Of a stretch of 64,000 nt of DNA, positions 1 through 16,144 are shown piece after piece. How positions within the stretch are numbered: position 1 is the stretch's first letter; every line of letters starts with the position of its first letter. This stretch comes from Microlunatus panaciterrae (GTDB lineage Bacteria > Actinomycetota > Actinomycetes > Propionibacteriales > Propionibacteriaceae), in the NCBI RefSeq assembly GCF_016907535.1, contig NZ_JAFBCF010000001.1, positions 3,038,001-3,102,000 on the forward strand. The letters run 5' to 3'. The translations under genes were made by a program, and so were the position numbers. The notes beneath the pieces were generated by a model. It had not been told where the DNA came from. It was given only the letters and a program-made list of their open reading frames with translations, and searched no databases.

Positions 1-893
1 CCGAGAACAGCGACGCTTGGATGTTCGATTCCCGCCTTTCTGAGCTGCGACAGCATCCACGTGACGGCAGCATGTACGGAGGCTTCGTGATTCCTTGGGT
101 ACGTGGAGAGTTGCTTCACATCGCTCGTGGTCGGCAGCGTCTCGTTCGCCATGACTGCATCCGCAAAGGACAAGATGCTCGCGTTGGGACTGCGGTGATT
201 GGCTCCGCCGAAATCGAACTCTTTCGGGGTGAACGTTGCACGGTACTGGTCCAGCCGACGTGGATCGATGTCCGCCTGATAGTCGAAAATCCGTTGGTCG
301 GGATCGGCGAGTGTTACCAGAGTGCTGTTGAGCGCGAGTTGCTGCACCAATGCCCACTGCGCGTCGTCGGTGTCCTGAAACTCGTCGACGATGACGATCG
401 GGTACATCTCTGAGATCAGCTCGCGAAGGCTCGACGAGCGGGCGAGGAGGTCGGCAGCGCGATCGGCGAAGGTGGAGAAGGCGTATCTCCCATCCTCAAC
501 AGCCAGTCGCTGCACTTCTATCGCCCAATCGCCCTCATGCTTTGCCTTGGCGAGCCGTTCGGGGCCAGGGAACAGGATGGTTGGATGCCTCCCGTTGAGA
601 AGACGACCGTGACTCCTGAGGATGTCCATGCAGAAGGCGTGATATGTCCTCACTGCGATCTGCTTGCGCTCCTTGGCGGTGAGGATGTCCTTGCATCTCA
701 GAAGCACCTGTCGAACGGCAGCTCGCGAGAAGCTCAGGAAGAGGACCTCTTGACCGCCCTCCAGCGCGGCGATCTGCCGCTGAGCTTTGAGGAGTGCGAG
801 AGTAGTCTTCCCCGATCCAGGGCCGCCGGTGACGAGCACGGTCCCGTCCGCCTCAAGTGCGGACAGGCCAACGTCGGAGAGAATGATGTTCAT
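1..893 (-). CDS. UvrD/PcrA-like superfamily 1 helicase, GajB-like, 3' part outside window
   Basis: This is the first 297 codons of an SF1A helicase; the rest lies left of position 1. Visible motifs are Walker A GGPGSGKTT at residues 23-31, Walker B VDEFQDT near 170, motif III ADPDQRIFDY near 199 and motif IV NHRSP near 233. The ATG at 893-891 overlaps the TGA of the upstream OLD-family gene in an ATGA junction, so the two are translationally coupled. OLD nuclease next to UvrD-like helicase is the gene pair of Gabija and of class 2 OLD systems. In Gabija the helicase-like subunit GajB works with GajA in anti-phage defence. The helicase assignment is secure. The Gabija label is inferred from gene pairing, and the missing C-terminal half prevents a length check. 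Confidence 0.88.
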   Translation of the reverse strand, partial: MNIILSDVGLSALEADGTVLVTGGPGSGKTTLALLKAQRQIAALEGGQEVLFLSFSRAAVRQVLLRCKDILTAKERKQIAVRTYHAFCMDILRSHGRLLNGRHPTILFPGPERLAKAKHEGDWAIEVQRLAVEDGRYAFSTFADRAADLLARSSSLRELISEMYPIVIVDEFQDTDDAQWALVQQLALNSTLVTLADPDQRIFDYQADIDPRRLDQYRATFTPKEFDFGGANHRSPNASILSFADAVMANETLPTTSDVKQLSTYPRNHEASVHAAVTWMLSQLRKAGIEHPSVAVL

Positions 894-2743
894 TCGTCCC
901 CGTCAGCAGCCTCATCGTCAACTGGTTGTCCATGCGCGTCAGTGGGAGTAGCTGCTGGTGTAAGGACTTCGTTGATCCGTTCGAGTGCAGCAACCAGGAA
1001 CTCCGGCAGGTCATCCCGGCTCTGACAGCCTTCGATGAGCAACGCGGCGTAGCCGTAGGCATCGCCCTTGCGCGCTTCCAGAGTCTTCAGCGCGATCTCG
1101 GGGAGGTCGGCGTCCGTGACCCAAGAGTCGTACTTCGCTTGATGTGCCGGGAAATCAGGCAGCTGAACGGCCTTGTCCATGAAGCGCCGCAGCACCGCGG
1201 TCGGTAGCTGGGAGACGATCAGTTCTTCGATGCCTTCGACCGGCGACTCCCAGAACTCCTCGAAGGACTTGAGTGACACGGCATTTCCCCCGGTGTACGG
1301 TGTGGTCTGCTTGTCGACCATTCCGAATGGGACCTTGCCAAGAGCTCGGAGGATCGGTGCCCATCGGGGCACATCACCGTCGCCATTCGCTGTGAAGATG
1401 GTTACGCCTGCAGGGTCTGGGTGAACGTAACCAGCGTCCGACTTCTCCAGCACTGCTGCTGCGACTGGAATAATGGATGCCTCCGTCTCGCCTTCGACGA
1501 CGAGGACGCCTCGGCTCAAGATCGCCTCAGAGAACTGGCGTCGCTGGCTGCGATAGCTCTTCAATTTGATGCCGGCGGGGTCGATGGGCGAGCCAGCCAC
1601 AACTCCCCTGGACCCGTGGCTCAGCATGACGATCTCGTCCGGTTCGAACTGCTCAATGACATACGGCGAGTGCGACGTCACGATGGCCTGCCCCATTTCC
1701 TTCTTCACGAACCGCGCAACTCGGCGTTGAGTGTGCGGAGGCAGCGCGATCTCGGGCTCTTCCATCGCGAAGATGACGGACTGTCGCTCTTTCAAGTCAG
1801 CGATCATCGTGAGCAACGCGAAGACCAGAAGGTTGACGGTGCCGGTCCCTTGCCGGGTAAAGGGGACGGCGTGATCGCTTGGCCCCGTCGCGACGAACAG
1901 CCTGACGACTTCCCGGAGGTGCTCACGCGTGAGGTCCGAGGCGAAGAAGGCCGTGGCGTCATCGTTGCCCGCCAGCCGAACAAAACCGCCTGCTCGTTCG
2001 CGAATCTGAGTGAGGAGGGACTCTAGGCCTGGGATTGCGCCGATCGCCGGGTCGAGGTCGCGCATCTGCCGAAGCGTTTCCATCCACATCTCGGCTGAGC
2101 CCTCCTCGCTCAGACGGAGAACCGTGTCGAGGAGTGAACCGCGCTGGAGACCAAGCGCTCGCGATCCAGTGCGCAGTGCGCGGAGATACACGAATCCGCA
2201 GAGCCGCTTGTGAGCCCTGGTGAAACGATCGCGTCCTTCGCCGAGTGAAGCCGCCTCTTCGTCGTCAAGTTCGTCAAGTTCTGGAAGCGGGTGCTCAAAG
2301 AAGGTATCTGCTTCAAAGTCGTCCTCGACCGCGTCATATCGCGCTCGGAAGGAGACCGGAAGCGCCCAGGTTACGCCCTCGTCGTCAGCGTGCTCCGCGC
2401 CGTCGTCAAGTTCATCGACGAAGGCCCGATCTGTGTCATTCCACCGTCGGAGGTGCCCTCCGAACCTTCGGCGTGCTTCGTCGGGCAGGTCAACAACGAC
2501 TGCGCGAATGACGATCGGGATGGCCGTCTTGTCAGCGTCTACGTATGTGCTTCTGTGGAAGTCGTGCTCGTCCACAACTGGGCGTCGACTCGTGCGCTCT
2601 GGCCCGAGGACGAGGTCAAGAGCCTCGCACACGGTTGACTTGCCGACGTTGTTCCCACCAACCAACAGAGTGTTGTCTGCGAAGACAACCTTGCCTAAGC
2701 AGACACCGCGGAAGTTCTCGATTTCCAGCTGGCGAACCTTCAT
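890..2743 (-). CDS. OLD-family ATP-dependent nuclease, GajA-like
   Basis: A 617-residue protein with an N-terminal ABC-type ATPase and a C-terminal TOPRIM nuclease. The ATPase shows ENFRG near residue 10, Walker A GGNNVGKST at 29-37, Walker B FAMEEPE near 328 and TSHSPYV near 357. The TOPRIM part shows VEGETE near 418. The usual second TOPRIM motif DxD appears as VDKQ near 476, so the second acidic residue is not conserved at that spot. GajA proteins are similar in length and layout. The start ATG (2743-2741) overlaps the brxL stop as ATGA, and the stop overlaps the helicase start the same way. It is thus co-translated with BREX on one side and the helicase on the other. The C-terminal tail is rich in Asp and Glu. 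The most likely role is an NTP-gated DNA nuclease in phage defence. Confidence 0.88.
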   Translation of the reverse strand: MKVRQLEIENFRGVCLGKVVFADNTLLVGGNNVGKSTVCEALDLVLGPERTSRRPVVDEHDFHRSTYVDADKTAIPIVIRAVVVDLPDEARRRFGGHLRRWNDTDRAFVDELDDGAEHADDEGVTWALPVSFRARYDAVEDDFEADTFFEHPLPELDELDDEEAASLGEGRDRFTRAHKRLCGFVYLRALRTGSRALGLQRGSLLDTVLRLSEEGSAEMWMETLRQMRDLDPAIGAIPGLESLLTQIRERAGGFVRLAGNDDATAFFASDLTREHLREVVRLFVATGPSDHAVPFTRQGTGTVNLLVFALLTMIADLKERQSVIFAMEEPEIALPPHTQRRVARFVKKEMGQAIVTSHSPYVIEQFEPDEIVMLSHGSRGVVAGSPIDPAGIKLKSYRSQRRQFSEAILSRGVLVVEGETEASIIPVAAAVLEKSDAGYVHPDPAGVTIFTANGDGDVPRWAPILRALGKVPFGMVDKQTTPYTGGNAVSLKSFEEFWESPVEGIEELIVSQLPTAVLRRFMDKAVQLPDFPAHQAKYDSWVTDADLPEIALKTLEARKGDAYGYAALLIEGCQSRDDLPEFLVAALERINEVLTPAATPTDAHGQPVDDEAADGDE

Positions 2744-4857
2744 CTGTTCGCCTCAGCTGCGGTCTCAAGGATGTAGGTGATGCCGAACGCGAAGACCTGG
2801 CGGAACTCCTGGCGGCGGGAGCCGAGGTCGAACTGGCTACCGGAGCCCTTCTGGAAGATGTCGAGGCCCCGGCCGAGGAGGAGTTTCCAGCCGTGGTCGG
2901 TGCGGATAGACCGGTCGTGGATGGTCTCGTCCCAGGTGACGGTGAACTTGATACCCACGGTGGCGGCGCTGTCTTGGATGTCCTTGAGCATGAGGAGGTG
3001 CTGCTGGGCGTACTCGCCGCGGTCCTCCTTGGTCACCAGCTTCACCGCGATCTCGTCGGCGGGGTCTTTGCTCGCTGCCAATAGTGCGAGTAGGTCGACG
3101 AGGTTGCGCCCCTGGTGCGGTAGGCGGATGTAGGGATCGACGATGGTGATCTCCGTCGCGCTGCGCAGGTACGGCATGAGCAGCGTCTCGTAGGAGACCC
3201 CGCGCTGGTTCTCCTGGAACTCGCGGTGGCCCTCGAACAGCTGGGGCGCTACGTCGACCGCCGTCGGGGCCGGAACTCCGGCCTCCTCGCCCGCCAGCTC
3301 GGAGGGGGCAGACGAATCGGTGCCGTCCTCGGTCTCGGGGCGGCGGGCCTGGTAGTAGTCGGCGTACTCGTCCTCTTCCAGCGTGGTGACGCTGTGCCAT
3401 GTGCCTGGCTTGTCGGCGTAGCCGAAGTTGACGGCGGCCATCGTGGTGTCGATCCGCAGGATTTGGTCTTTGACGCGTTTGCGCCCCTCGATGGCGAAGC
3501 GGAGCAGTTCCTCGATCTCTGCTGGGGTCGCCTCGCCGTTGGGGTAGATGAGCTTCATCAGACCGGAGAAGGTCTTGTGGATCCCGTCGCGGTCTCGCGT
3601 GGAGATGTCTGATCCGAGGGTGAAGTGGTGCTGGTATCGGTCGGAGTAGTCGGTGTTACGCATCGACCGCAGTACCTCGGCGATGAAGTCGACGACGAAG
3701 CCGTAGCCGGAGGAAAACATCTCGCTGCGGATCGTGTCGATCTCCCAGCCGGGGATGTAGAAGTGGAGGCGGTCGAGGTAGGCGGAGTCGTGGTAGACCT
3801 CGGGTAGCTCGTCGAACAGGTCGGAGTGCTTGAGCATGTAGGGCACGGTGTGCGAGGTGTTGCCGACGAAGACCATCGACGCCTCTGCTCCGAGAGTCTC
3901 GACGCCACGGGAGAATGACTTGTTCGCCATGTAGTTCTTCATGATGTCGACGAGTGCCTTGTCGGTGCGCTTCTTCTTGCCTGCGAACTCGTCGAACGCG
4001 ACGACGTCCCAATAGCCGACCAGGCCGATGCGTCCGTTGGCGTTGTTGACGAAGAGCTTCGGGACGGTGACCTCGCCGCCGGAGATCAACATGCCGTGGG
4101 GTGAAAACTCGGAGTAGATGTGGGACTTGCCTGTGCCCTTCGGTCCCAGCTCGACGAGGTTGTAGTTGCGCTCGACGAACGGGATGAGCCGGACGAGCTG
4201 AAGCAGCTTGGCGCGCCGTCCGAACATCTCGGGGTTGAACCCGATGGACTGGATCAGCAGGTCGATCCACTCCTCAGTATTGAAGCCTTCCCGCGAGGCG
4301 AGGTAGCCCTCGTAGTCGAAGCTCGACATCTGGATCGGCTTCAGGCTCCCCAGCATCCACGGCACGACCCTGGTGTCATCGCTGTGGGAGTACTCGATGT
4401 CGCAGATGCACCACACGCCGCCGACGAGCAGCTTCGGGTTCGCCTTCACCGTCGCCGGTTCGACGATCACGCCGCCCAGCCCGAGGTTGGCGAACGACGC
4501 CTGGTACACGTCCTGCTTGTCGTTCAGCGTCACCGTGACCTTGTCGATGATCCGGTGCCGGCCCTTCTCTCGGATGGTGGACTTCACCAATTCCGACTCG
4601 TTGCGGTGCACGTAGTGGTCCGCAAGAATCTTGCGCACCGCGTCGATGCCGGCTTGGATCGTCGCTTCGTCATCGGACGCGGCGTACTGGCCGAGCAGGT
4701 ACTCCAGAACGTAGGAGGGGACGATCGCGTTGCCCTTGACGGCCTTTACGAGGTCTTTGCGGACGACGGACCCGCCGAACAGCAGGTTGATCTTGTAGTC
4801 GAGGTCGCTCTGCTGCGGCGTGCTCGTCTCGGCGCTCGGGTTCTCGGTGTCGGTCAT
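2740..4857 (-). CDS. brxL: BrxL-type AAA+ protein of BREX with MITD1-like C-terminal domain
   Basis: BrxL is the AAA+ component of type 1 BREX, classically called Lon-like. At 705 residues it is close to family size. Walker A is in ELGPKGTGKSH near residue 242 and Walker B in VVAFDEFAGKK near 289. After a Pro/Ala/Glu-rich linker near 500-550 the C-terminus does not read like a Lon protease. It contains ITIVDPYIRLP near 565, HDRSIR near 647, and GW...GRGLDIF, the pattern of the PLD-like C-terminal domain of human MITD1. The start at 4857 (MTDTENPS) is chosen over an in-frame ATG at 4938 because AGGGGAAG lies 8 bases upstream and the longer form would overlap pglZ. pglZ ends 15 bases upstream; the stop overlaps the OLD-family gene by 4 bases. 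Confidence 0.9.
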   Translation of the reverse strand: MTDTENPSAETSTPQQSDLDYKINLLFGGSVVRKDLVKAVKGNAIVPSYVLEYLLGQYAASDDEATIQAGIDAVRKILADHYVHRNESELVKSTIREKGRHRIIDKVTVTLNDKQDVYQASFANLGLGGVIVEPATVKANPKLLVGGVWCICDIEYSHSDDTRVVPWMLGSLKPIQMSSFDYEGYLASREGFNTEEWIDLLIQSIGFNPEMFGRRAKLLQLVRLIPFVERNYNLVELGPKGTGKSHIYSEFSPHGMLISGGEVTVPKLFVNNANGRIGLVGYWDVVAFDEFAGKKKRTDKALVDIMKNYMANKSFSRGVETLGAEASMVFVGNTSHTVPYMLKHSDLFDELPEVYHDSAYLDRLHFYIPGWEIDTIRSEMFSSGYGFVVDFIAEVLRSMRNTDYSDRYQHHFTLGSDISTRDRDGIHKTFSGLMKLIYPNGEATPAEIEELLRFAIEGRKRVKDQILRIDTTMAAVNFGYADKPGTWHSVTTLEEDEYADYYQARRPETEDGTDSSAPSELAGEEAGVPAPTAVDVAPQLFEGHREFQENQRGVSYETLLMPYLRSATEITIVDPYIRLPHQGRNLVDLLALLAASKDPADEIAVKLVTKEDRGEYAQQHLLMLKDIQDSAATVGIKFTVTWDETIHDRSIRTDHGWKLLLGRGLDIFQKGSGSQFDLGSRRQEFRQVFAFGITYILETAAEANR

Positions 4858-4871
4858 GGCTGTTGCTTCCC

Positions 4872-7367
4872 CTAGAAATCGAAGTCCGACGTGAACGAGC
4901 GCTTGAGCAAGTACTGAGCCCGCTGGTAGACGCGCCACTGGGTGGTGTTGGGTATCTGCTCTTCGAGGCGGAACTCGACGGAGCGGTTGTTGAACTCGTT
5001 CGCGTCCTGGCTGAGCAGCATCCGTGCGCTCTGGTAGCGGTCGCGCTTGTCGTCGGACGGCTGGTCGAAGATCAGCTCGGACTGGTTCGAGATCAACGTC
5101 TCACCGACGTAAATGCCTGCCCGAAGCGTGCGCGGCTGCACCTTTTCGCTGACGGGCTCGGACTGGAAGAGTTTCACGACAAGTTGACCCGTGGTGATCT
5201 TGTCGGTCTCCGGCAAGACCTCCACGTTGACCAGACGAGTATCGCTCTTACGCTTCTTGTTGACCGTCAGCACCGGCACGACGACCTCCTGGAGTGAGGC
5301 GCCGCCGTGGACGAACCGTGAGCCTGCGCCGGGCAGCTTGAGCCGGTGGATTGACTTGGGAATCTGCACTTCGAGATCGCTGCTGAGCCCGAGCTGTTCA
5401 GGCTGGAACTTTCGGAATGCGGGATCGTCCTTGAGGCCTCGCCCCAGTACGTATCGGCGGTTCGTCACCACGAGGTCGTCGCCCTGGGGCTTGGTGGAAA
5501 GGTAGAACGCATCGGCGAGCGCGGTGTCTTGGTAGAGGAAGCCGTGGTCGGCGGTCACGAGGATGTTCGTCGCGTTCGCGTTGGTCAGACGTTTGATGAG
5601 GTCGACCAGATCGCGCAGAGCGTCATTGGCGGCCTCGAACACCTGGCGTTCGGTGCGGGCTTTGTCACCCACTGCGTCGATCCGGTCGTGGTACACGTAC
5701 AGCACCTGATGCGCGCCATATAGCTCCCGCAGCTCGGCGCGCGGCATGGAGAGGACTTCCTCTGCCTGGATCGCGAACCCATCTACCAGAGCAAGCACCT
5801 TATTGCGGTTCCCTGTTCCGTCGGAACGCTGGCCGTCGACGAGCACCGGGTCCCCACCGTGGGAGTGGCCCAGCTTCTTGTGCGGCAGGAGGGCGGCCAT
5901 GCCGAGTTGGGTGTAGCTCGGGAGGACGCCGAGCACCGCTTCGAGCGTTGCGTCGAACCGGTCTTCTTGGCGGATGCGTGAGCGAAGCTCGTCGGCGACC
6001 TCGTAGCGCAGAGCGTCAGAGATGATGACGACGGCCTTCCGGTTGCCCTTCCGGATGATCGGCTCGACGTGATCGGCGAAGAACCTCGTCTGCGGACGCA
6101 GCGTCACCGACCGCCAGTTATCCACCGCGTCGACCTGCTGCTGCCAGGTGGTGCCGAGTTCGTAGAGGAACCGGTTCGCGTAGTGCTTCTCCACCTCGAC
6201 CCGGAGAACTTCGAGCGGGCCGGCGTACTCGGTCGTGCGGGCGGCGAAGTGGAACTGCCGGTAGAGCTGGTCGATGCGGAACCAACTCTTGCGGTACCGG
6301 TCGAGACCCTCGTCGAACGAGGTGATCTCGAACTTCTCGGTCGCGAGTTCACTCAGCACGTCGGAGGCCGCGCCGAGCGCCGCATACAGTTCCCGATAAC
6401 TATCAACCCAGATGCTGCTTTGGCGAGCACGGATGGTCTCGAACACCTCGCGCGCACTCATCGTCCGCTCGACGATGGCGCGAGCGAGGGTGCTGATGAC
6501 CTTGCGTTCTACGTCCTCGAAAAGATCGTTCCCGACGAGTTCAGAGAGTTCGGCGTCTTCGATGCTGCTGGCGTAATCCAGGCTCTCCGAGGCCCGCCGT
6601 GCCAGCATGGCAAGGGCGTCAGCGCTGCGGCGGTCGTTGCGCAGGCTCGCGAAGTCGAGCTGGATGTTGCGCAGGGCGGCAGGGGTGTCCGACGCGAACC
6701 CGTTGATCGCCTGGCGGAATATCCACAGCACGAAGTCATCGACGCTGGGTTCGCTCGCCTCGTAGCCGTAAATCTTGGCGACGCCGGCCCAATGGAAACT
6801 GTCGAGTCCCTGCTCGGCTAGGGCCTCGTACTTGTCGCGGTCGTCGCGCGCGTTCTCGGTCAGCAGGGCGCGCGTGAGTTCCAGCATGCTGTGTTCGCGC
6901 TGACCAAGCAGCACCGCGCACATCTTGGCGCGCAGCCGGTCCGCGTTATCTTCGGCCGTGAGCAGTGCCCTGAGGCTCTGAACCCGCTTCGCGGCGCGGA
7001 AGAACTTCTCATGGTCCCGGATCACCGCGTCGATCCCGCTGCCGGTGAGGCCGAGCCCCTGACGCACCAGCGTCGTCCGGTCGGCGGTGAATACCCCATA
7101 CGCCAGTTCAAGATCGAGAAGCCAGTTCCCTATACCGGGCGGCACGGGGGCTCCGCGGTAGATGAGAAACTTGCCGGTCGGCTCATCATGGAGCACTCTG
7201 TTCTTCACCGCGTACTCGTTGTTCTCCACCCGCAACGTGGTGACACCGGCGACGTCCAGGGCGTCGAGCTCGGAGGCGTACTCGCCGTCGGCGTCATGCC
7301 AGAAGACGAGCCGCTGCGACTCGAACCGCTGCTCCAGGTGCGGGAGGACCGCGCTAAGTGAACTCAC
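4872..7367 (-). CDS. pglZ: BREX alkaline-phosphatase-superfamily protein PglZ
   Basis: PglZ is the second hallmark protein of BREX, required for defence, with an alkaline-phosphatase-type metal-binding core. The 831-residue product opens with the family-typical LEQRF...VFWHDADGEY. It has the metal-site strand VVIISDALRYE near residue 446 and VTADHGFLY near 606. The length is normal for type 1 PglZ. Translation starts at GTG (7367-7365), whose GTGA overlaps the stop of the small ORF upstream. The stop lies 15 bases before brxL. Composition is less GC-rich than the chromosomal genes beyond 18 kb. No truncation or frameshift is seen. Confidence 0.95.
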   Translation of the reverse strand: MSSLSAVLPHLEQRFESQRLVFWHDADGEYASELDALDVAGVTTLRVENNEYAVKNRVLHDEPTGKFLIYRGAPVPPGIGNWLLDLELAYGVFTADRTTLVRQGLGLTGSGIDAVIRDHEKFFRAAKRVQSLRALLTAEDNADRLRAKMCAVLLGQREHSMLELTRALLTENARDDRDKYEALAEQGLDSFHWAGVAKIYGYEASEPSVDDFVLWIFRQAINGFASDTPAALRNIQLDFASLRNDRRSADALAMLARRASESLDYASSIEDAELSELVGNDLFEDVERKVISTLARAIVERTMSAREVFETIRARQSSIWVDSYRELYAALGAASDVLSELATEKFEITSFDEGLDRYRKSWFRIDQLYRQFHFAARTTEYAGPLEVLRVEVEKHYANRFLYELGTTWQQQVDAVDNWRSVTLRPQTRFFADHVEPIIRKGNRKAVVIISDALRYEVADELRSRIRQEDRFDATLEAVLGVLPSYTQLGMAALLPHKKLGHSHGGDPVLVDGQRSDGTGNRNKVLALVDGFAIQAEEVLSMPRAELRELYGAHQVLYVYHDRIDAVGDKARTERQVFEAANDALRDLVDLIKRLTNANATNILVTADHGFLYQDTALADAFYLSTKPQGDDLVVTNRRYVLGRGLKDDPAFRKFQPEQLGLSSDLEVQIPKSIHRLKLPGAGSRFVHGGASLQEVVVPVLTVNKKRKSDTRLVNVEVLPETDKITTGQLVVKLFQSEPVSEKVQPRTLRAGIYVGETLISNQSELIFDQPSDDKRDRYQSARMLLSQDANEFNNRSVEFRLEEQIPNTTQWRVYQRAQYLLKRSFTSDFDF

Positions 7368-7549
7368 TCGTCGCCCTCCAGCTTTCGCTCGATCGCTCGC
7401 AGAGTCTCAAGGTCGGCGGCGTCAGCTTTGAGCGCTTCCTGGCGCTTGCGCTTACCATCGAACTCTGCGTAGCCGGCCCCGGCGAGGGACTGTCGTGCCA
7501 GTGAGACGACAATCTGCCTGCCACCTGGCGTCCGCTCGGTCTCACTCAT
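7364..7549 (-). CDS. Small highly charged ORF between pglX and pglZ, function unknown
   Basis: A 61-residue ORF starting MSETERTPGGRQIVV and ending LRAIERKLEGDE. Its ATG at 7549-7547 lies 8 bases inside the 3' end of pglX, with TTGGAG about 8 bases upstream as ribosome-binding site. Its TGA overlaps the pglZ GTG by 4 bases. Removing it would break the otherwise unbroken chain of overlaps in the operon, the best evidence that it is translated. The sequence has a short hydrophobic patch (IVVSLARQSLAGAGY) followed by a Lys/Glu/Ala-rich segment likely to be helical. I do not recognise a family. It could be a BREX accessory subunit, a PglX or PglZ partner, or simply a coupling ORF. Confidence 0.7.
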   Translation of the reverse strand: MSETERTPGGRQIVVSLARQSLAGAGYAEFDGKRKRQEALKADAADLETLRAIERKLEGDE

Positions 7550-10500
7550 CGGCAGACTCCAACCCTGTGATCTTCTTGAGGGCCGGGTAGAGCTTCGGAT
7601 AGTTGGCCCTCACCCCGTCATCGAGGTCGATCGCGATCTGCTGCGATGCCAACGGGTAGAGCACATCGTGCTCGTACTCGCCCAGCTCCAGTAGCACCTT
7701 ACGGAGCCGATCAGACTCTTTTAGCGCCGCAGCCTTCTCGCGTGGCGTGCCGTCTCCGGCGGCGAGACGATCCTGGTGCTGGAGGTTCGCCTCCAGCTTC
7801 GACTCGAACTCGCGCAGGTACTCGTTCAACACCGTCGAGACGGTGGACGGGGTGTAGCGGTGCATGTAGATCAGCGCGTTGAACGACCCTTTCGGACTGG
7901 AGAACAGCCAGTAGATCGGGCGCTTCTTGTACCGCTGCACGTGATCGTCGTAGAACTTCGACCGACCGGCCCGAGTGATGAAGTACTCTCGCAGCGCCTT
8001 GACCCCAAGCGTCTCCTCAACGAACCGAAGGTTCTCCTCGAAGTGCTGCTCCCCAAACGCCGCCCGCAGGAACTGGCGGAACCGCGCAACGATGTCATCC
8101 TCGAACCAGTCACCATCGACGATCGGAAGAACGTTGTCTGCATCGGGGACGAGGGTCGGCACCGGCACCTTCGTGAGGTAGTCCTGCACCGTTGATCCTT
8201 GATCGGCGAGGAGGAGGCCGGGTTCGTCGAGGCTATAGCGACCGAACATGCAGCCCACGGAATAGGAGACGAGGTCCCCAACGAGAATCCGAACAGCTCC
8301 CAGATCACGCTCGGCATCTGTCACCGCATTTGGAACCACGAACGCCGGATTACGGAAGAGCGTGATCTGAGCCTCTGCAACGTCCGTTTCCACCTCGCCA
8401 TCAAGACCGTACAGCTTCGAGTAGAACTCGTTGTTGGCCGCTTCCAGGCCACGAAGCTCCACCGTCAGTGCTCGACCGTCTCTGATTGACGCTGAGCATG
8501 AAGCAGCTAGCGTCGCTCCCGATTCTCGATGTGCCGTGAGGGCTGGCGACACATCAAACCCCCAGGAGTGCTCGCGCGAATCCCAATCATTGCGCGATAT
8601 CTCTATTGCACGTTCCACGCGATTCGACACTTGGGACGCTTCAAAGTCAAGGCTGGGCATATTCCCGATCTCGGTACTCGTGTAACTCAGCCCTGGGGAC
8701 ATGATGTCAAGGTAAAGTTGAGCCACGACCGAGTTCGTGAACGCCAACACCTCGCTTATTGCCGCTGCACTTCGCGGGAATATCATCCTGCCTGTGTCAT
8801 CGAATACGAACCCGGCGGGCGAATAGCGGGTTGCGAAGGTGGCGCCACCGTTCTTCGTGTAGGTGATTCCCTCACGGCCTTGGTACTCCAGATTTCGCGG
8901 CGCGGAACCAGGATGCTGTCGGATACGCATGCCAGCGTCCTCCCAGTCCATAACCACGGTGTTGTTCCCGTACCACCTGCGAGGCTCACCCCCGCTGTTG
9001 CACGGCGCCCAGCGAAACTTCGACGCGCTGTCTCTGGAGCCAATTGGGGCTATTCGGCCGAAGGAAACTTCATGCCAACACCGTTGGAATCGCGAGTTGT
9101 CCCCGGTCGAAACGCCCGACTTGAGCTCCGCTCGCGAACCAAACGACGCCTTTCCCTCGAAAGACCTCGCAACCCTCTCCGGAATCCAGTAAGCAACCGG
9201 CAAACCCGGGACCATCCGAAATTGATCTACTGAGGCTCGGAAGCGACGCGAAGCGTCCCCAACGCCAAGTTCAAGAAGACGCCGCTTGCCCACCTCGTTT
9301 GGCGCGAGCGTCAAGTCGAGAAATTCGCCGACTACCCCCGACACGCCATCGCCGGTCAAAACGAACGCCGCTGTCGAAACAACTTCGCCGCCAATGGAGT
9401 CGAACGCGCCAGGCCCGAGTTGAATAAGTGATGCAATGGACCCCCCATTCAACACGCCCTGCCGGAGATCCCGATAGGATGATCCGAACATCCACTTCTG
9501 CATGGTGATCATTGCCGTGAACCCACTCGGAACGACCAACCTGCGGGCACGGATGATGAAGGCAGCCCACAAATCCGATGGTGCTTCCGGGAAACGGGCC
9601 TTCACGAAGGTTGCCAACCGGTCGCCCATGTTGCGCAGAACCATGTAGGGCGGGTTTGTCACCGCAACGTGGTAGCGCTGGCTGAGGTATTCGGCCTGGG
9701 CTATGACCCGTCCTGCGCAGTCCAGCAAGTTGGCCAGGAGGATGTCCCCACCGTCGTCGAGCTGGGTGATGTGCTGCTTGAGGTGAACGGTCAGCTCCGG
9801 GTTAGGCTGGATGAGCGCCCCGAACGTGTCGGCGTGCTCGAACTGGTTCCAGAAGGCCGACTCGGCGTGCTTGTCGCCGCCGCGGGCCAGCAGGAAGTCG
9901 ATCTCGTCTGGCGTGAACCGGATCGGGTCGAGGACGCAGACGTTGGGCGCGACTGGCTTGTTTAAGAACGTCCGCTGCTTGGCGCGGGCCTTCATGGTCA
10001 AAGCGAACGCCGCCAGCGCTCCGGCACGTGGGTCGATCTCAGTGCCGTAGAGGTTGTGAGTGAGGATCACCTCAGGAATCTCAGATGGGGCGTAGCCCTC
10101 TTCCTCGTAGATCGCGTAGAGCAGGTTGAAGGCGTAGGTAAGCATGTGGCCGGAGCCGCAGGCCGGGTCGATGACCTTCAACTCCTCGGGGCTGCTGATC
10201 TTGAGGAAGTCGGTCTCTTCGTCGACTGGTGCGATGTAGTAGTCCATCTGGTCGGCGAGCCGGGAGGAGGGGTGGTTGAGCATCCAGAGGCGGCCGAGGG
10301 AGTTCTCGACGAGGTAGCGGACGATCCAGTGCGGGGTAAACAACTGGGTCGCGGCGGGAATCTCGGTAGCGCCAGCCTTCTTCCCTTTCTTGAACTCTGC
10401 GAAGACTTCACTTTTCCGCTCAGAGATGTAGAACTGGTACAGCCAGCCGATCACCTCGACATCCCGGGAGACCTCCTGAGTGAGCACCGCAGTGGCCCGG

Positions 10501-11063
10501 GTGAGGATGGAGTCCGCGGCGAGGAGGTTCGCGGGGATGAGGAGTTCGGTGTAATCGCCTTCACGCTCGAACATGAATGGCATGGAGCGGTTCCAATAGC
10601 GGCAGTACTCCGCGAGCAGAAGTGTGTACGCCTCGCCTTGGGCGTCTGCGCTGGGACGGGTGCCGTCGAGGAGTCCGATGATCGTGTCAAGGGTGCGCTT
10701 GTTGCTAACAACGGCGGGGTCGATGTTGCCGCGCTTGGCGTCGGCGAGTACCTCTGGTTGTCCGGTCTGCTGGCCATGAGCGGGTGAGACGGCGCCGACG
10801 CCGGTGTAGCCGTTGGCGTCCATGAAACGCAGCGCGATGATGCGGTTGAACCAGGTGTAGGCGACCTTGTCGGCGACCGCGTCCTTGCCCTTGGCTCCGC
10901 CGCCGGCAGCTGCGATGTCGCGTTCGAGCATGGTGACGGCACGCGGTTTCTCGACCCGCTCCGGTGAGGCTGGGGCGAGCACGGCGGTCAGTCGGGCGCT
11001 GACCTGGGTGATGAGTTCGCGCCTGGCCCAGGTGGCGAAGCTCTTCAGCGGTGCGGTTTCCAT
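7542..11063 (-). CDS. pglX: BREX type 1 adenine-specific DNA methyltransferase PglX
   Basis: PglX is the N6-adenine methyltransferase that marks self DNA in BREX and is also needed for defence. The 1173-residue product begins METAPLKSFATWARREL, typical of type 1 PglX. It carries SAM-binding motif I DPACGSGHML near residue 301 and the catalytic motif NPPY near 471. The C-terminal half should hold the target-recognition region. The DNA of about 8.2-9.6 kb is visibly richer in A/T than the rest of the gene, as expected for an exchanged specificity segment. AGGAG sits 9 bases before the ATG and is embedded in the TAG stop of brxC, 12 bases upstream. The stop overlaps the small ORF. The methylated motif cannot be read from sequence. 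Confidence 0.96.
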   Translation of the reverse strand: METAPLKSFATWARRELITQVSARLTAVLAPASPERVEKPRAVTMLERDIAAAGGGAKGKDAVADKVAYTWFNRIIALRFMDANGYTGVGAVSPAHGQQTGQPEVLADAKRGNIDPAVVSNKRTLDTIIGLLDGTRPSADAQGEAYTLLLAEYCRYWNRSMPFMFEREGDYTELLIPANLLAADSILTRATAVLTQEVSRDVEVIGWLYQFYISERKSEVFAEFKKGKKAGATEIPAATQLFTPHWIVRYLVENSLGRLWMLNHPSSRLADQMDYYIAPVDEETDFLKISSPEELKVIDPACGSGHMLTYAFNLLYAIYEEEGYAPSEIPEVILTHNLYGTEIDPRAGALAAFALTMKARAKQRTFLNKPVAPNVCVLDPIRFTPDEIDFLLARGGDKHAESAFWNQFEHADTFGALIQPNPELTVHLKQHITQLDDGGDILLANLLDCAGRVIAQAEYLSQRYHVAVTNPPYMVLRNMGDRLATFVKARFPEAPSDLWAAFIIRARRLVVPSGFTAMITMQKWMFGSSYRDLRQGVLNGGSIASLIQLGPGAFDSIGGEVVSTAAFVLTGDGVSGVVGEFLDLTLAPNEVGKRRLLELGVGDASRRFRASVDQFRMVPGLPVAYWIPERVARSFEGKASFGSRAELKSGVSTGDNSRFQRCWHEVSFGRIAPIGSRDSASKFRWAPCNSGGEPRRWYGNNTVVMDWEDAGMRIRQHPGSAPRNLEYQGREGITYTKNGGATFATRYSPAGFVFDDTGRMIFPRSAAAISEVLAFTNSVVAQLYLDIMSPGLSYTSTEIGNMPSLDFEASQVSNRVERAIEISRNDWDSREHSWGFDVSPALTAHRESGATLAASCSASIRDGRALTVELRGLEAANNEFYSKLYGLDGEVETDVAEAQITLFRNPAFVVPNAVTDAERDLGAVRILVGDLVSYSVGCMFGRYSLDEPGLLLADQGSTVQDYLTKVPVPTLVPDADNVLPIVDGDWFEDDIVARFRQFLRAAFGEQHFEENLRFVEETLGVKALREYFITRAGRSKFYDDHVQRYKKRPIYWLFSSPKGSFNALIYMHRYTPSTVSTVLNEYLREFESKLEANLQHQDRLAAGDGTPREKAAALKESDRLRKVLLELGEYEHDVLYPLASQQIAIDLDDGVRANYPKLYPALKKITGLESADE

Positions 11064-11075
11064 ACGTGTTGTCTC

Positions 11076-14000
11076 CTACAGCGCGATGCGCTTGTCGTCG
11101 TTGAGGGCCTGGACCAGTGCCGCACGCAGCGCGTCGAGGTAGCGATCGACGTCCTCCTCGGTCTCCAGAACGCCGTGGATACCGGTGGCGCTGATGCTCT
11201 TGACCGAGACGGTCTGCTTCGTGGGTTGGGCGGGGGTTGGCTCGTCGTTGTCGTCCGCGCTGCTGGTGCGGGGCGACGCGGCGAGTTGGTCGAGGATTGC
11301 CGGGTATGTGCGTTCCTCGAAGGTGTTCGCGATCTCGCGGACGATGGCGATCTGGCTCTCGCTGCGAATTCGGTCGAGGATCGCGCTGACCTTCTGGCTC
11401 ACGCTGTGCTGGGCGTCGTCGGTGGCGTCCAGATAGATCGTGCTGGTCTGGAGGGGCGCCCAACGGGAGTCGATCTCCAACAGTGCTTCATCGCGGTTGG
11501 CCACAAGCGCATCGTCGATGCGGGACTGGAGCTCGACCGCGGCAGCCTTGAGCTTGGTCATGCGATTGCCACGGAAGGCCTGCGGGTCGGCGAGGAGTTG
11601 CGCCACGTCTTGGCTGCTGCCGGAGGGGAGGTAGTTGAGATTGCTGGCGTTGCCGGCAACCAGCTCGGTTGCCTCGTCGAAAATCTTCCGCTGGGCGCCG
11701 CCGAGGAATGCCTGGATGGGGTCGATGATGTCGGTCTTCGCGTCGAGCAGATCGGCGGCGATGGCGAATTCGGTCAGGTACCAGTCGTCCGGCCTACCAG
11801 CGACGGACTCCAGCAGCGAGATCGGAGCGTCGAGCTGAGAAACGAAGGGGTACTTCGAGCCGCTGACTCGTGCCTTGAGCTCGTCGAGCTTGGCGCGGAG
11901 GCGTTCGCTGGCGTGCCGGGCCAGTTCGAGGGGGTCCTTCGGCGCGGTGGGCTCGTCGAAGAAGTCTGTGCAGAACGCGCGCAGTGCCGCGACCTTGCGC
12001 TGATCGAAGGTCCTCTGCGGAGCGACGACGGCGTGGGAGTGCTTCTGCGTGTTGCGCAGCGCGGCGGCGACCTCGCTGCGCTTGAGGATGTTGGAGTCGA
12101 CGGTGAGGATGATCTTCGAGGTGCCGACGAGCCAGGCTGTGACGCACTCGATGGAGGCGAGGTCCCAGCCGTAGGGCTTGGCCTGGAAGTGATCGACGAT
12201 CTTCTTGACCGTGACCTGCTCACCGAGCCGGTCACGCTGCAGCAGGTACGACAGCAGCTCGTCGGCCGGTGCGGCGAGCGCGTGGAGCGAGGAGTCGTCA
12301 ATCATCGCGGACTGATCAGGGTTCGCGAATCCGGCGACCTGCTGCTCGGAGTAGGTGCGTCCGCCAAGGAGGCTCAGCTGCGTGTAGGTCCGCGCGATGA
12401 GGTCTTGGAACCCGTCAGTGATCCGGGTGATTGCGTCCTGCGACCCCGCCGGCAGGTCTGCGGCGTTGATGACGAGATCGGCGCGTCCGACGGCGCGGCG
12501 GATGCGCTCGACCAGCTCCTTCTCCCGCTCCGCGTTCTGGGTCGCCTTGGCTCGCAGAATCTGCTCCTCGGTCGGGGACAGTGAGCTGGTCTGCTTGCGC
12601 TTGGTGTACTTCTCGGTCTTGATCAGCAGCCGCAGGTCGGCCAGCACCCGGTCATCGGGGGCGAGTATCACGCGCAGCTCGTCTTTGCCCGCCGAGTGCA
12701 TCCGAATCTCCTCCGGACCGTAGGGGTACTCGGGGGTGATGAAGTGCAGCGAGAGTTCGCGCTGCTGGCCGAAGGCCTGGTCGTCGAGCTTGTACCCAAA
12801 CGCGAAGTCCTGCCCGTTCTTGGCGTAGCGGAGCTTCGATGTCTTGACGACATCGCCGGAGAGGATCTTGTTGAGCCGGGTCGAAACCTCGGAGGAGTCG
12901 ATCTCGACGTTCTTGATCTCTTCCTCGATCACCTGCTCTTCGTTCGTCAGGTACTCGTACACGTTGCCGTTGCGCTGCACATAGGTCTGCGTCTCCAGCA
13001 GCGTCAGCGCTTCCTGAACCTGCTTGGACAGCGCCGGCAGGTCCAGCCCGAACCGGTTGTAGACCAGCACAGTCAGGTTGCGCGGGGTGGCCTGGAAGCT
13101 CTCCACGTATTTCACCAGAAACAGCGCCTTGAGCAGCCGCACCGCGAGCTTGGTGACCGGTGAGCCGCTGTTGGGAAGGTCGCGCTCGGCCCGGTCGATG
13201 GAGCGCTGTGCTGCGGACTTCAGCGAGGCGCGGATGCCAGCGAACATGCTGTCGAATGTGGCCAGCGTGCCGATCTCGACGTCACCGATGTCCTTGGCGA
13301 CCTGCTGGACGACACCCAGCATGGAGCGTTCACCGACAGAGCTGTTGCGGCCCTCGAACACGTTGTGGTCGGAGATGCCCTCGATCGCGGCCTGGAACAG
13401 AGGGAACTGGTAACTCACGAACGGGTAAGTGCCAACGAAGTGGGCCTCGTCGGTGAAATTGCGGTAGGTCTTGGCGCCATCGACGAAGTCGAAGAGCGTC
13501 TTGAAGTTCGCCGACTCCTGCGCGTAGACCGCTTCGAGCACCTGGGCGCCCTTGTTGTTCTTCTCCAGCAGGCGCTTGCGGATGACCTCTTCCACGTCGG
13601 CGGAGGTGAGCTTGACGCGGGTCTTGAACCGGGCCTGAATCTTCGAGAAGTCGTTGCCTTGCTGCTTGGTGCGGTCTCCGACGACCCTGTCCATGTCCTC
13701 CTGTGAGGTCACGAACACCCAACCACGCCCGCCGCACTTCGTGTTCAGTGACTCGGCGATCGTCTGAAGGTTCAGCATCAGATGCGTGTTGGAGCCGATG
13801 AACTGCCCGACCTCATCGACGAAGAAGTTCAGTCGGTAGCCTGCTGGCTGCTTGTCCAGCCACGCGCGGACCTCGTCGGCGAAGTCCTCGATCGACACCG
13901 AGTAGGTGTCCTGATAGGTCTTCAGGACGTCGGGAGCGGTCGATGCGTCCAGGCCGGTGATCTGGGCGTATGCCTCGTTGACCTGGCGGCGAACCGTCGG

Positions 14001-14606
14001 GAGCCCGAAGCTCGGCCGGCGCTCCACCCATTCGCGACCGGACACAGCACGGAAGGCGTCCTTGAACGCGTCCAACTGGCCCTCGTCGTCGAGCTGCCGT
14101 TCGAACCGGGCGATGTGGCCCTGGTCGCCGTAGTAGCCGCGGGACTCATCGAAGACTTTCACGAACACACGCAGCAGGGCGTCGGTTTGATCCTTGCTAA
14201 TCAGGGTGGCCTTCTGGTCGATGTTGAACAGGAGGCTCTTCGCCGGGATGCGGTCGGCCTTGTCGAGCAGCGGTGGCAAGAAGGCGTCCGTCGCCTTGGC
14301 GCGGAAACTCGCCGAGACGCGGCCGCGCGGGAAGTCGTCGCCCTCCACGTCGCCCAGGAGGTGCGCGAGCATCTTCAACAGGTGCGACTTGCCGGAACCG
14401 AAGAAGCCCGAAATCCACACACCGTTGGCGTTGGTGTAGCTCGTGTACGCCTCAAGCAGCAGCTCCAGCCCCTTGGCTGCCTCGTTGGTCAGGACGTACT
14501 CGTCGACCTCGGTGCCCAGGTGCGCAACGTCATCGGCCTTGATGACGCCCTCGATGGGCCGCTGGACGTCCTTGGCGAAAATCTCAGTGAGTTGCATGAC
14601 GGTCAC
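11076..14606 (-). CDS. brxC: BREX P-loop ATPase BrxC
   Basis: BrxC is the large P-loop ATPase of type 1 BREX. At 1176 residues it matches the family. The N-terminus reads LTEIFAKDVQRPIEGVIKADD, a recognisable BrxC opening. Walker A is GFFGSGKSH at residues 67-75, and VDEVGQFIG near 265 is the Walker B region. Two starts are possible. A GTG at 14606 overlaps the brxB stop as GTGA; an ATG three codons later gives MQLTEIF, which fits the family equally well and has AGGAA 11 bases upstream. The GTG is reported for its coupling with brxB. pglX follows after 12 bases. Confidence 0.94.
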   Translation of the reverse strand: MTVMQLTEIFAKDVQRPIEGVIKADDVAHLGTEVDEYVLTNEAAKGLELLLEAYTSYTNANGVWISGFFGSGKSHLLKMLAHLLGDVEGDDFPRGRVSASFRAKATDAFLPPLLDKADRIPAKSLLFNIDQKATLISKDQTDALLRVFVKVFDESRGYYGDQGHIARFERQLDDEGQLDAFKDAFRAVSGREWVERRPSFGLPTVRRQVNEAYAQITGLDASTAPDVLKTYQDTYSVSIEDFADEVRAWLDKQPAGYRLNFFVDEVGQFIGSNTHLMLNLQTIAESLNTKCGGRGWVFVTSQEDMDRVVGDRTKQQGNDFSKIQARFKTRVKLTSADVEEVIRKRLLEKNNKGAQVLEAVYAQESANFKTLFDFVDGAKTYRNFTDEAHFVGTYPFVSYQFPLFQAAIEGISDHNVFEGRNSSVGERSMLGVVQQVAKDIGDVEIGTLATFDSMFAGIRASLKSAAQRSIDRAERDLPNSGSPVTKLAVRLLKALFLVKYVESFQATPRNLTVLVYNRFGLDLPALSKQVQEALTLLETQTYVQRNGNVYEYLTNEEQVIEEEIKNVEIDSSEVSTRLNKILSGDVVKTSKLRYAKNGQDFAFGYKLDDQAFGQQRELSLHFITPEYPYGPEEIRMHSAGKDELRVILAPDDRVLADLRLLIKTEKYTKRKQTSSLSPTEEQILRAKATQNAEREKELVERIRRAVGRADLVINAADLPAGSQDAITRITDGFQDLIARTYTQLSLLGGRTYSEQQVAGFANPDQSAMIDDSSLHALAAPADELLSYLLQRDRLGEQVTVKKIVDHFQAKPYGWDLASIECVTAWLVGTSKIILTVDSNILKRSEVAAALRNTQKHSHAVVAPQRTFDQRKVAALRAFCTDFFDEPTAPKDPLELARHASERLRAKLDELKARVSGSKYPFVSQLDAPISLLESVAGRPDDWYLTEFAIAADLLDAKTDIIDPIQAFLGGAQRKIFDEATELVAGNASNLNYLPSGSSQDVAQLLADPQAFRGNRMTKLKAAAVELQSRIDDALVANRDEALLEIDSRWAPLQTSTIYLDATDDAQHSVSQKVSAILDRIRSESQIAIVREIANTFEERTYPAILDQLAASPRTSSADDNDEPTPAQPTKQTVSVKSISATGIHGVLETEEDVDRYLDALRAALVQALNDDKRIAL

Positions 14607-15202
14607 GGTTCCTGTTCCAGAATGTTCTTGGCGCGGTAGTACTGGTCGTCCTTCAACCTGCCGAACAGCACCAGCGACGAGCCGAGGGTGTCGGACTGCT
14701 CATAGCGGCCGGGGAAGAACATGAGCATCGGTCGGCCTACCACGACGCTCTGCAAGTTGTTGAGCACGTTGTGGGAGCGGATGTAGGGGAAGACTTCGCC
14801 GATCCCGGTCAGGAACACGATGTCGAATCCGCCGTCAGCGAGCTTCGCTCTAATGGCAGGAGCGAGGCGCTGCTGCGGGTTGAGCATGGACTGCAGCATC
14901 TCGGTGAACTCGGCCTTGTCCAGCTCGGGCTCGACTTCAAGCACTTCGTCCCAGTCGCCGCGCTCCTTGAGAACCTCCACCGACAGGTCGTAGAGGTTGA
15001 TCTCGCGAACCTCGATGCCTCTGCTCGCCAGCCGGTTCTTGACCCGCTTCTTCGCCTTCGCCACGTCGAGGGCGTGCTCGGGCTCGTAGGGGTAGATGAA
15101 GAACGGGACCTCGTTCGAGAGACCCTCCATCTTCAAGAAACGATCGCCGCTGAGCACCGCGAACAGGTGCTCCTCCTCATGAGTGAGTTCATTCAATGTC
15201 AC
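14603..15202 (-). CDS. brxB: BREX protein BrxB (DUF1788)
   Basis: A 199-residue BrxB protein, a small conserved subunit of type 1 BREX whose biochemical role is not settled. Family features seen are the N-terminal FFIYPYEPEHAL segment, IVFLTGIGEVFPYIRSH in the middle and VGRPMLMFFPGRYEQ near the end. The length is normal. The start is GTG (15202-15200), giving MTLNELTHEEEHLF; GTGA overlaps the brxA stop. Its own stop overlaps the brxC GTG in the same way. This chain of overlaps implies fixed stoichiometry among BrxA, BrxB and BrxC. Confidence 0.92.
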   Translation of the reverse strand: MTLNELTHEEEHLFAVLSGDRFLKMEGLSNEVPFFIYPYEPEHALDVAKAKKRVKNRLASRGIEVREINLYDLSVEVLKERGDWDEVLEVEPELDKAEFTEMLQSMLNPQQRLAPAIRAKLADGGFDIVFLTGIGEVFPYIRSHNVLNNLQSVVVGRPMLMFFPGRYEQSDTLGSSLVLFGRLKDDQYYRAKNILEQEP

Positions 15203-15819
15203 AGCGTGCCCTCCTTGCCGTCGCGAGTCGGGAGGAACCGCACATCGCTGGGTACCTGCGCATCCAGCGCGTCTCGGACCCGCTCGGACAGGGGCGCGTG
15301 GACGATCTCACCGCCGGTGAGCAGGCCAGCCTCGGTCAGCATCCGGAACACGGTTGAGCGGAGCTTCTGCAACGTCGAGTCCTTCACCTCAGCGAGCTCC
15401 GGATGCCACAGCGCCTTCCCTCGAACGAAGCTGTCGAAGTCGTCGTAGCCAAGCGTGGGCGTGAGCAGCAGGAACCGTTCCCGCACCACTTCCTCGGCGA
15501 AGTCGCCGATGAACGCGTAGCGTCGACATGCCGCGACCCACATCAGGTGGCCACGCTCGCTGGGACTGGCGTCGCGCAGCAACTCCAGTTCAGCATCTGT
15601 GAGCACCGCCAAGCGCTGCGCGACCTCGCGCGCCAGCCGGAACCCGGACGATGCGGTTCTCGCCTGGAGCAGATTCTCCGCGCGGAGCTGGTCGCGGACA
15701 GCACTCCAGTCACGAACGTCCAGGTAAAGTGGCGCGGCGATGACGGCCTCCCTGGTCAAGAGGGCACCGCTGGTGAACGACAGTGCGTATCGGCCGTCCG
15801 TCTGGAATGTGACGCTCAT
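15199..15819 (-). CDS. brxA: BREX protein BrxA (DUF1819)
   Basis: A 206-residue BrxA protein, a small helical BREX subunit reported to bind DNA in other systems. The sequence starts MSVTFQTDGRYALSFTSGALL and contains LLTPTLGYDDFDSFVRGKAL, both typical of the family. The frame stays open upstream to 16098, but AGGAGG lies exactly 6 bases before the ATG at 15819, and the upstream extension is Arg/His-rich noise antisense to the HTH gene. The start at 15819 is therefore firm. A 32-base gap separates it from the HTH gene, the only real spacing between the regulator and the BREX genes. The stop overlaps brxB by 4 bases. Confidence 0.92.
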   Translation of the reverse strand: MSVTFQTDGRYALSFTSGALLTREAVIAAPLYLDVRDWSAVRDQLRAENLLQARTASSGFRLAREVAQRLAVLTDAELELLRDASPSERGHLMWVAACRRYAFIGDFAEEVVRERFLLLTPTLGYDDFDSFVRGKALWHPELAEVKDSTLQKLRSTVFRMLTEAGLLTGGEIVHAPLSERVRDALDAQVPSDVRFLPTRDGKEGTL

Positions 15820-15851
15820 CTGGTGCCTCCTTCCGGTTCCTGGGCAGTGGA

Positions 15852-16109
15852 TCAGGTTATGGGGTGCCACCGACAAAGCGACGGTGACGGCTGAGAGTGG
15901 TGCGATGCCCACCCCGACTGCGCGGTCTCGGACGAGGACGCGGCCCCGCCTCGTCTCACCCAGTCGTCGATCTCGCTGGCTTGGAACTTCCAGAGGCGCC
16001 CGATCTTGTGGGCGGGCATGGCCTTCTCGGCGATCCAGGTGTAGACGGTGTCTTTGGTGACCCCGAGGTGGGCGGCGATGTCGTCTGCGGACAGCCACGG
16101 CTCAGCCAC
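15852..16109 (-). CDS. Small excisionase/MerR-type helix-turn-helix protein
   Basis: An 85-residue protein whose residues 5-52 form a winged helix of the HTH_17/excisionase type: WLSADDIAAHLGVTKDTVY, TWIAEKAMPAHKIGR and LWKFQASEIDDWV. The last 30 residues are low-complexity. The GTG start has GGAGG 6 bases upstream. It is the first gene of the operon and sits 32 bases before brxA. It is the obvious candidate for a local regulator; BREX loci elsewhere use a different, WYL-domain regulator (BrxR). An excisionase role for the recombinase remnant at 17.2-18.0 kb is the alternative, since this fold also serves as a recombination directionality factor. Confidence 0.8.
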   Translation of the reverse strand: MAEPWLSADDIAAHLGVTKDTVYTWIAEKAMPAHKIGRLWKFQASEIDDWVRRGGAASSSETAQSGWASHHSQPSPSLCRWHPIT

Positions 16110-16130
16110 GTTGGTCCTCCCTCGCTCTAC

Positions 16131-16144
16131 GGCCCGAGCGGGCC
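16131..16144. promoter_or_regulatory. Inverted repeat between putative promoter and the HTH-BREX operon
   Basis: Perfect palindrome GGCCCG-AG-CGGGCC (6-base arms, 2-base centre) in the leader of the HTH gene. It lies just downstream of the predicted transcription start, a position where a bound repressor would block transcription. It could equally be an RNA hairpin shielding the leader. Confidence 0.4.

Follow-up and report, generated by a model that had tools for sequence, protein, structure and literature searches.

Does a nuclease system whose genes overlap those of a BREX (bacteriophage exclusion) operon work as part of BREX, or is it cargo that can be exchanged? The question is raised by a 64,000-nucleotide stretch of Microlunatus panaciterrae (the window; contig NZ_JAFBCF010000001.1, here C1, positions 3,038,001 to 3,102,000), where the last BREX gene, brxL, runs into the gajA and gajB genes of a Gabija pair. 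With the sequence left of the window included, three defence modules were found, namely type I BREX, Gabija and a dynamin pair (leoBC and leoA), comprising 12 genes over 20.8 kb, all on the minus strand. The type I BREX operon with an HKD-type BrxL is, in all likelihood, a chassis for exchangeable defence cargo, whose passengers would be co-expressed and would probably act as autonomous backups. The linkage is genuine, partly conserved and modular, and the unusually long composite defence operon is real.

Cassette replacement behind brxL

Gene content, order and junctions could be compared directly between related loci, as could cassette replacement and its breakpoints. In two relatives, G496 and G635a, the BREX proteins, PglX aside, were 87 to 93% identical to those of the window. 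Matching DNA blocks between the window and G496 ran from 17063 to −6002 (78 to 86% identical; negative positions denote C1 sequence left of window position 1, from the fetched neighbouring stretch), with three gaps: the middle of pglX, the interval between pglX and pglZ (slot 1; 7513-7379) and the interval directly behind brxL (slot 2; 2770 to −843). Between 2770, shortly ahead of the brxL stop, and −843, where leoBC starts, the window carries gajA and gajB, and G496 and G635a carry SIR2 and HerA-like genes joined to brxL by the same ATGA overlap. G635a showed the same kind of slot-2 replacement as G496, and the DNA flanking the slot was ∼86% identical to the window in both. Profile searches for SIR2-HerA were run on G635a, and G496 was assigned by the same gene lengths and N-terminus. 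At base level, similarity dropped in the last ∼10 codons of brxL, after the conserved VFAFGITYI, and resumed at the leoBC start. The pglX middle and slot 1 of G496 and G635a differed from the window as well as slot 2.

When 27 loci were placed on a quick core tree, several forks of which were weakly supported, at least four state changes were counted for Gabija, three for SIR2 and two for the dynamin pair; a Brevibacterium relic was scored as Gabija, and a divergent dynamin in G246 and five loci with cut ends were uncounted. We infer recombination in the flanking core genes as the route by which cargo would be exchanged.

These replacements bear on a combined mechanism suggested in an earlier note made from the sequence alone, with a fixed ratio of the parts and, as an example, PglX self-marking that gates the nuclease. 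In such a combined machine, Gabija would be a functional subunit of BREX, controlled through PglX marking or BREX sensing. The coupling behind that suggestion stood in part: the ATGA junction of brxL and gajA is kept across families, in the window, in Tessaracoccus sp. MC1679 and in G387 (another family; BrxL 75% and GajA 84% identical), and of the four close relatives of GajA in the order, three are linked to brxL. However, the linkage is not specific to Gabija, as the same junction occurs with SIR2, SIR2-HerA and OLD-like ATPase cargo, and G496 and G635a carry another slot-2 segment in a stretch that is otherwise collinear. GajAB relatives also lie without BREX matches in the flanks searched, some of them short, other BREX loci lack Gabija, Gabija is broken in Brevibacterium, and GajA does not follow the swap of the PglX middle described below. 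Nothing in these sequences spoke for gating of the nuclease by PglX marking. Given the cassette replacement, Gabija as a dedicated BREX subunit is not favoured, and we regard a combined machine as very improbable.

The twelve-gene string and its junctions

BrxA, BrxB, BrxC, PglX, PglZ, BrxL, GajA and GajB were identified with Pfam and PADLOC, and the type I core set (brxA, brxB, brxC, pglX, pglZ and brxL) is present in one operon-like string. The gene order given in the earlier note, from the helix-turn-helix gene to the UvrD-like helicase, was borne out by domain searches. The junctions below agree with its list apart from that of pglZ and brxL, which is 14 rather than 15 bp; the gap between the helix-turn-helix gene and brxA is absent from that list. 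Genes are listed in the direction of transcription, with E values in brackets.

15852..16109, minus strand: small helix-turn-helix protein, 85 amino acids, first gene (Pfam HTH_17, 2e-14); then a 32-bp gap
15199..15819, minus strand: brxA, 206 amino acids (Pfam BrxA, 3.3e-51, scored on a longer mechanical open reading frame); then a GTGA overlap
14603..15202, minus strand: brxB, 199 amino acids (Pfam BrxB, 4.7e-41); then a GTGA overlap
11076..14606, minus strand: brxC, 1176 amino acids (PADLOC BrxC, 0); then 12 bp
7542..11063, minus strand: pglX, adenine methyltransferase, 1173 amino acids (PADLOC PglX, 0); then an 8-bp overlap
7364..7549, minus strand: small open reading frame between pglX and pglZ, 61 amino acids, 98% identical in Tessaracoccus; then a GTGA overlap
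4872..7367, minus strand: pglZ, 831 amino acids (Pfam PglZ, 1.9e-59); then 14 bp
2740..4857, minus strand: brxL, 705 amino acids (Pfam BrxL_ATPase, 9.3e-128; BrxL_N, 2.6e-47; MIT_C, 1e-43; 732-amino-acid mechanical open reading frame); then an ATGA overlap
890..2743, minus strand: gajA, OLD ATPase and TOPRIM, 617 amino acids (PADLOC GajA, 1.7e-224; Pfam AAA_15 and OLD-like_TOPRIM); then an ATGA overlap
1..893 in the window and on to −834 (C1:3037166), minus strand: gajB, UvrD-like helicase, 575 amino acids (PADLOC GajB, 4.2e-190); then an ATGA overlap
C1:3035070-3037169, outside the window, minus strand: leoBC-like dynamin, 699 amino acids (PADLOC LeoBC, 1.9e-43, residues 80-533); then an 8-bp overlap
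C1:3033347-3035077, outside the window, minus strand: leoA-like dynamin, 576 amino acids (PADLOC LeoA, 5.1e-68, residues 41-561)

The string thus leaves the window within gajB and continues with leoBC and then leoA. The HTH_17 gene is a probable regulator of the string, and a ribosome-binding-like sequence, GGAAGGAGG, precedes the brxA ATG. PglX carries DPACGSG and NPPY motifs and is predicted to be a motif-specific methyltransferase of host DNA. BrxL ends in an MIT_C/phospholipase-D-like (HKD-type) domain with the motif HDRSIRTD at residue 647. GajA carries GGNNVGKS and EEPE, and the adjoining GajB carries GGPGSGKT and DEFQ; a GajA-GajB complex cleaving phage DNA is predicted here. DTPG and Pfam MMR_HSR1 were found in both dynamin-like proteins, and a typed P-loop pattern matched neither. 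PADLOC labels this pair LeoA and LeoBC, which we take to be the system named Eleos.

Overlaps were found at 8 of the 11 junctions in the string, and six were of exactly 4 bases; elsewhere in the window, a simple GC3-based gene caller gave such overlaps for 3 of 22 neighbours on the same strand (Fisher P = 0.03). Since 4-base overlaps are ordinary in operons, conservation of junctions is stronger evidence than their count. A consensus scan for promoters and terminators, a weak method in a GC-rich actinomycete, found none at the junction of brxL and gajA. It returned five terminator-like sites, of which the only minus-strand site lies inside brxB (15125-15106), and a single promoter-like site, on the plus strand, with no excess over shuffled sequences (10.5 and 1.8 expected, respectively). 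BREX and Gabija are likely to form one transcription-translation unit.

A TrwC-type relaxase gene, split into two overlapping open reading frames, lies 337 bp downstream of leoA (7333-11009 of the fetched stretch). As one like it is also present downstream in G496, the operon is probably on a mobile element. Just upstream of the operon is an alpha/beta hydrolase gene (16242-17237), which occupies the same place in G496 (73%) and is partly present there at the contig end of G635a. A tRNA-His gene was considered as an attachment site and rejected; the genome has a single copy of its 3′ end at ≤3 mismatches, and thus no repeat to support the idea.

Cargo in related loci

BrxL was found in 8 of 394 genomes of a class sample and 26 of 391 genomes of an order sample. 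Regions examined behind brxL numbered 35. The order sample lists 28 brxL loci, from which two C-terminal fragments (G457b and G553), an N-terminal fragment (G576) and two distant loci (G667 and G623) were left out; of the 23 essentially full-length genes, three were in two pieces (G693, G637 and G517) and G246 had an in-frame stop. A contig end lay within 1 kb in G510, G462, G693 and G734, giving 19 usable loci.

A recognised defence gene stood at the brxL junction in nine of these 19. The linkage of brxL to Gabija was recovered in three, namely G000 (the window's own locus), G574 (apparently Tessaracoccus sp. MC1679, as the coordinates agree) and G387, and also in Mobilicoccus, from another search. 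The other six carried different cargo: SIR2 in four (with HerA in G635a, G496 and G551; in G400 the next open reading frame had no family match), a 995-amino-acid OLD/Ppl-like ATPase in G720 and GmrSD in G246. A kinase gene occupied the same place in G265. The start of the cargo overlapped brxL by 4 bases in the three Gabija loci, in the SIR2 loci G635a and G496 and before the G720 ATPase, and by 1 base before SIR2 in G551, so that seven of the nine filled loci had one of these two overlaps. Outside the order sample, brxL and gajA of Mobilicoccus also overlapped by 1 base. Among the fragment loci, G457b showed a 4-base overlap before a SIR2-like open reading frame, and that of G553 had the same N-terminus and no Pfam match.

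Plain hitchhiking would offer another account: the modules would lie side by side on a mobile element, with overlaps that reflect the usual compaction of operons and no ratio under selection. The 4-base overlaps in the flank, the relaxase genes here and in G496 and the different spacing in G400 and G246 are consistent with it. Yet the 4- or 1-base overlap recurs with different cargo genes behind brxL, and the block from brxA to leoA is common to the window and Tessaracoccus as a unit, both of which count against it; we consider hitchhiking doubtful.

Several observations weigh against a chassis with coupled, exchangeable cargo. No recognised defence gene started within 50 bp of brxL in 10 of the 19 usable loci; an AbiEi gene began at +107 in G711 and an Mrr-like one at +144 in G642, and the eight others include mechanical open reading frames unmatched by PADLOC, the scan covering ten frames from eight of the ten loci. 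Spacing differed in two of the nine filled loci (G400 and G246). On the gammaproteobacterial plasmid pFW12EY of Methylomonas koyamae, in the order pglX-YhcG-Shedu-pglZ-brxL-exonuclease/YhaN-GajA-GajB, 134 bp separate brxL from the next gene and gajA follows after 186 bp, so that coupling to brxL is not universal. Co-transcription and translational coupling are themselves what we infer from sequence. Finally, three of the four close GajA relatives (the window, G574 and G387, with G438 lacking a BrxL match) follow brxL, and six of seven strong LeoBC matches (below 1e-38, order sample) lie in or beside a BREX locus; both linkages could be read as real partnership. The genomes behind them are few and related. 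Hypergeometric values, which take no account of relatedness, were given no weight.

Wider searches gave context to these linkages. In a scan of a genome collection (84,980 species), 47 GajA pattern matches were obtained, of which 16 encode a relative, and type I BREX lay beside gajA in three of the 16 (tblastn with window proteins as queries). Tessaracoccus sp. MC1679 holds brxA to leoA, Mobilicoccus massiliensis BREX, gajA, gajB and a leoBC interrupted by a stop, and Brevibacterium mcbrellneri BREX and a broken gajA. The BREX queries had no match at the other 13 loci, where several flanks were short and distant BREX types would be missed; nine GajA loci of 54 to 59% identity were likewise unmatched within their fetched flanks, some of them short. 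An Arthrobacter YC-RL1 plasmid carries a Gabija pair without annotated BREX within 10 kb. In the order sample, GajA was detected at an E value of 0.001 in 74 of 391 genomes and at ≥49% identity over its length in four (the window, G574, G387 and G438). As far as these sequences indicate, the GajA subfamily of the window stands alone in other bacteria.

For the dynamin pair, a LeoBC-family match at 1e-20 was found in 12 genomes of the class sample, 10 of which had no BrxL match and two of which had one. The pair was thus rejected as a general BREX partner, and its link to BREX is a feature of one clade. A plasmid search for LeoBC returned five records, none covering 80% of the query. G246 has a LeoBC-like gene (31%) in divergent orientation ahead of brxA (12115-13998 of the region), with a second GTPase-like match beyond.

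GajA and GajB of pFW12EY belong to PADLOC subfamilies other than those of the window. Seven further plasmid records were inspected in the PLSDB gene tables, which are incomplete: no cargo was listed in either slot for the Rhodococcus qingshengii, Arthrobacter Rue61a, Sinorhizobium and Paracoccus plasmids, and a Mesorhizobium plasmid had two genes starting 257 bp behind brxL. A Rhodococcus opacus plasmid carried an AbiEi/AbiEii pair between pglZ and brxL (10575-12004 of the region), an interval that is a possible third place for cargo.

Slot 1 held Shedu in G387, Schlafen-AlbA proteins in G635a, G400, G417, G590 and G637, YhcG in G496 and SIR2 with HerA-like genes in G517 (15156-18733 of the region); as SIR2-HerA lies in slot 2 in other loci, it can occupy either slot. 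In Mobilicoccus, the slot contained a 196-amino-acid open reading frame that matched no family and includes a hydrophobic stretch, in Brevibacterium a 75-amino-acid frame resembling an internally deleted YhcG, and in the window and Tessaracoccus the 61-amino-acid frame, for which no family match was found; some relatives had no called open reading frame there. Inside the 61-amino-acid frame lies a 25-bp imperfect palindrome (7489-7513), approximately ATTGTCGTCTC-4-AGACGACAAT, found with 0 to 4 mismatches in slot 1 of 7 of the 35 regions: the window, Tessaracoccus, Mobilicoccus, G635a, G496 (two copies), G400 and G417. At 5 to 6 mismatches, weaker matches appeared in three other regions, against two in the shuffled control, and at the cut-off used the palindrome occurs once in the window's genome. 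It may be a recombination or regulatory site. The small frame was rejected as a YhcG relic, the protein alignment (score 53; 1 of 2,000 shuffles as good) resting largely on the shared palindromic repeat. An RNA hairpin was likewise rejected; the 121-nucleotide fold did not stand out from shuffled sequences (z = 0.53), and no match to an Rfam family attained the gathering score there.

The window and Tessaracoccus shared 95 to 97% DNA identity from 15892 to −4630, except between ∼9640 and 8280, in the pglX middle. In 60-residue bins, PglX identity was 95 to 98% over residues 1 to 360, 20 to 58% over 361 to 960 and 93 to 100% over 961 to 1173. Residues ∼361 to 960 are probably an exchanged segment that holds the recognition domain. 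GajA was 96% identical between the two; with GajA so little changed and the PglX middle swapped, there is no sign that GajA is adapted to a single methylation specificity. In G400, G551 and G721, pglX was interrupted by partial pglX copies on the opposite strand beside a phage-integrase-family gene, an arrangement that suggests an invertible recognition segment. Reversed partial copies also occurred in G590 and G637. Invertible pglX genes are known elsewhere.

Mode of action and comparison with known systems

In the chassis model, one promoter region upstream of the small HTH gene would drive the BREX proteins, then Gabija and then the dynamin pair. BREX would label the cell's own DNA by way of PglX and stop phage DNA that lacks the label; the roles given here to BREX and Gabija follow published work. 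Slot 1 would take mostly single nuclease-like genes and slot 2 one- and two-gene systems, the dynamin pair being a further end module in one clade. As the stop/start overlap behind brxL is often kept, passengers are probably made in set proportion to BREX, and they would most likely work on their own, as layers that come into play later, when a phage evades or inhibits it. Phage DNA would be the target of Gabija, through its nuclease GajA and helicase GajB, and the membrane the site of action of the dynamins, this membrane step being the least certain part of the mechanism. A stronger version seems unlikely, although it is worth stating: a plug-in platform of two fixed sockets and a swappable PglX segment, with effector translation wired to the core, in which backups are made only together with BREX and act when it fails.

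Backups could instead resemble guards, chemically autonomous and specifically released when phage proteins inhibit BREX. Such release would explain many different effectors in the same slots, to which OLD-type ATPases (Gabija and the G720 ATPase) and nuclease-like effectors have been repeatedly recruited, and passages of PMC12839542 argue for backup effectors and cite PARIS sensing Ocr. However, no sequence feature here points to sensing of the BREX state, and Gabija elsewhere is reported to respond to DNA ends and RecBCD inhibition (in passages of PMC12904381) and to nucleotide depletion (nucleotide sensing being mentioned in PMC12205998); BREX methylation is not involved in the Gabija passages of either paper. 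We judge guard-like release decidedly unlikely and retain the chassis with autonomous backups.

What might be called vaguely a defence island becomes a set of natural swaps. Between closely related operons, most of the difference lies in three places (the middle of PglX, the gene in slot 1 and the system in slot 2), and such matched natural variants make it possible to test for additivity, synergy and effects of ratio between BREX and its passengers. The dynamin pair is indicated as a BREX partner in one clade, and no description of it in that role was found in the open texts searched. Nor were the BREX-Gabija-dynamin string, cassette breakpoints or an overlap persisting with different cargo found in the open literature searched, supplements aside.

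GajA and GajB of the window have the expected domains and the ATPase and helicase motifs of Gabija and differ in being BREX cargo; their similarity to Gabija proteins of solved structure is remote (E values of 2e-4 for the best GajA chain and 2.6e-5 for the GajB chain). PADLOC models match most of the length of the LeoA/LeoBC pair, which differs in forming the last module of a BREX operon; the window LeoA matches solved LeoA (4aur) weakly (3.6e-6). Eleos is enriched in Rhodococcus according to PMC10482375, in whose main text the word Gabija is absent. In pEFER, BREX lies beside BrxU, a type IV GmrSD enzyme, and protection is complementary (Picton 2021, PMC8565348); the cargo differs from that of the window, and the passages concerned speak of complementary layers, not coupled cassettes.

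That nuclease modules can lie within or next to a BREX operon, as in the window, is a principle already published in PMC12839542, whose text assigns auxiliary and backup roles to nucleases of BREX loci (those of the TOPRIM/OLD group, among them Gabija and PARIS, as well as Shedu, Schlafen and GmrSD) and counts BrxL-HKD in 1,030 of 2,913 taxa. The words dynamin, UvrD and SIR2 do not occur in its main text, and no base-level cassette breakpoints or kept overlaps were seen in the passages and section consulted. Type I BREX with BrxL-HKD, as described there, and the window share the six core genes and the phospholipase-D-like BrxL C-terminus; to these the window string adds the small HTH_17 gene in first position and, behind brxL, Gabija and the dynamin pair.

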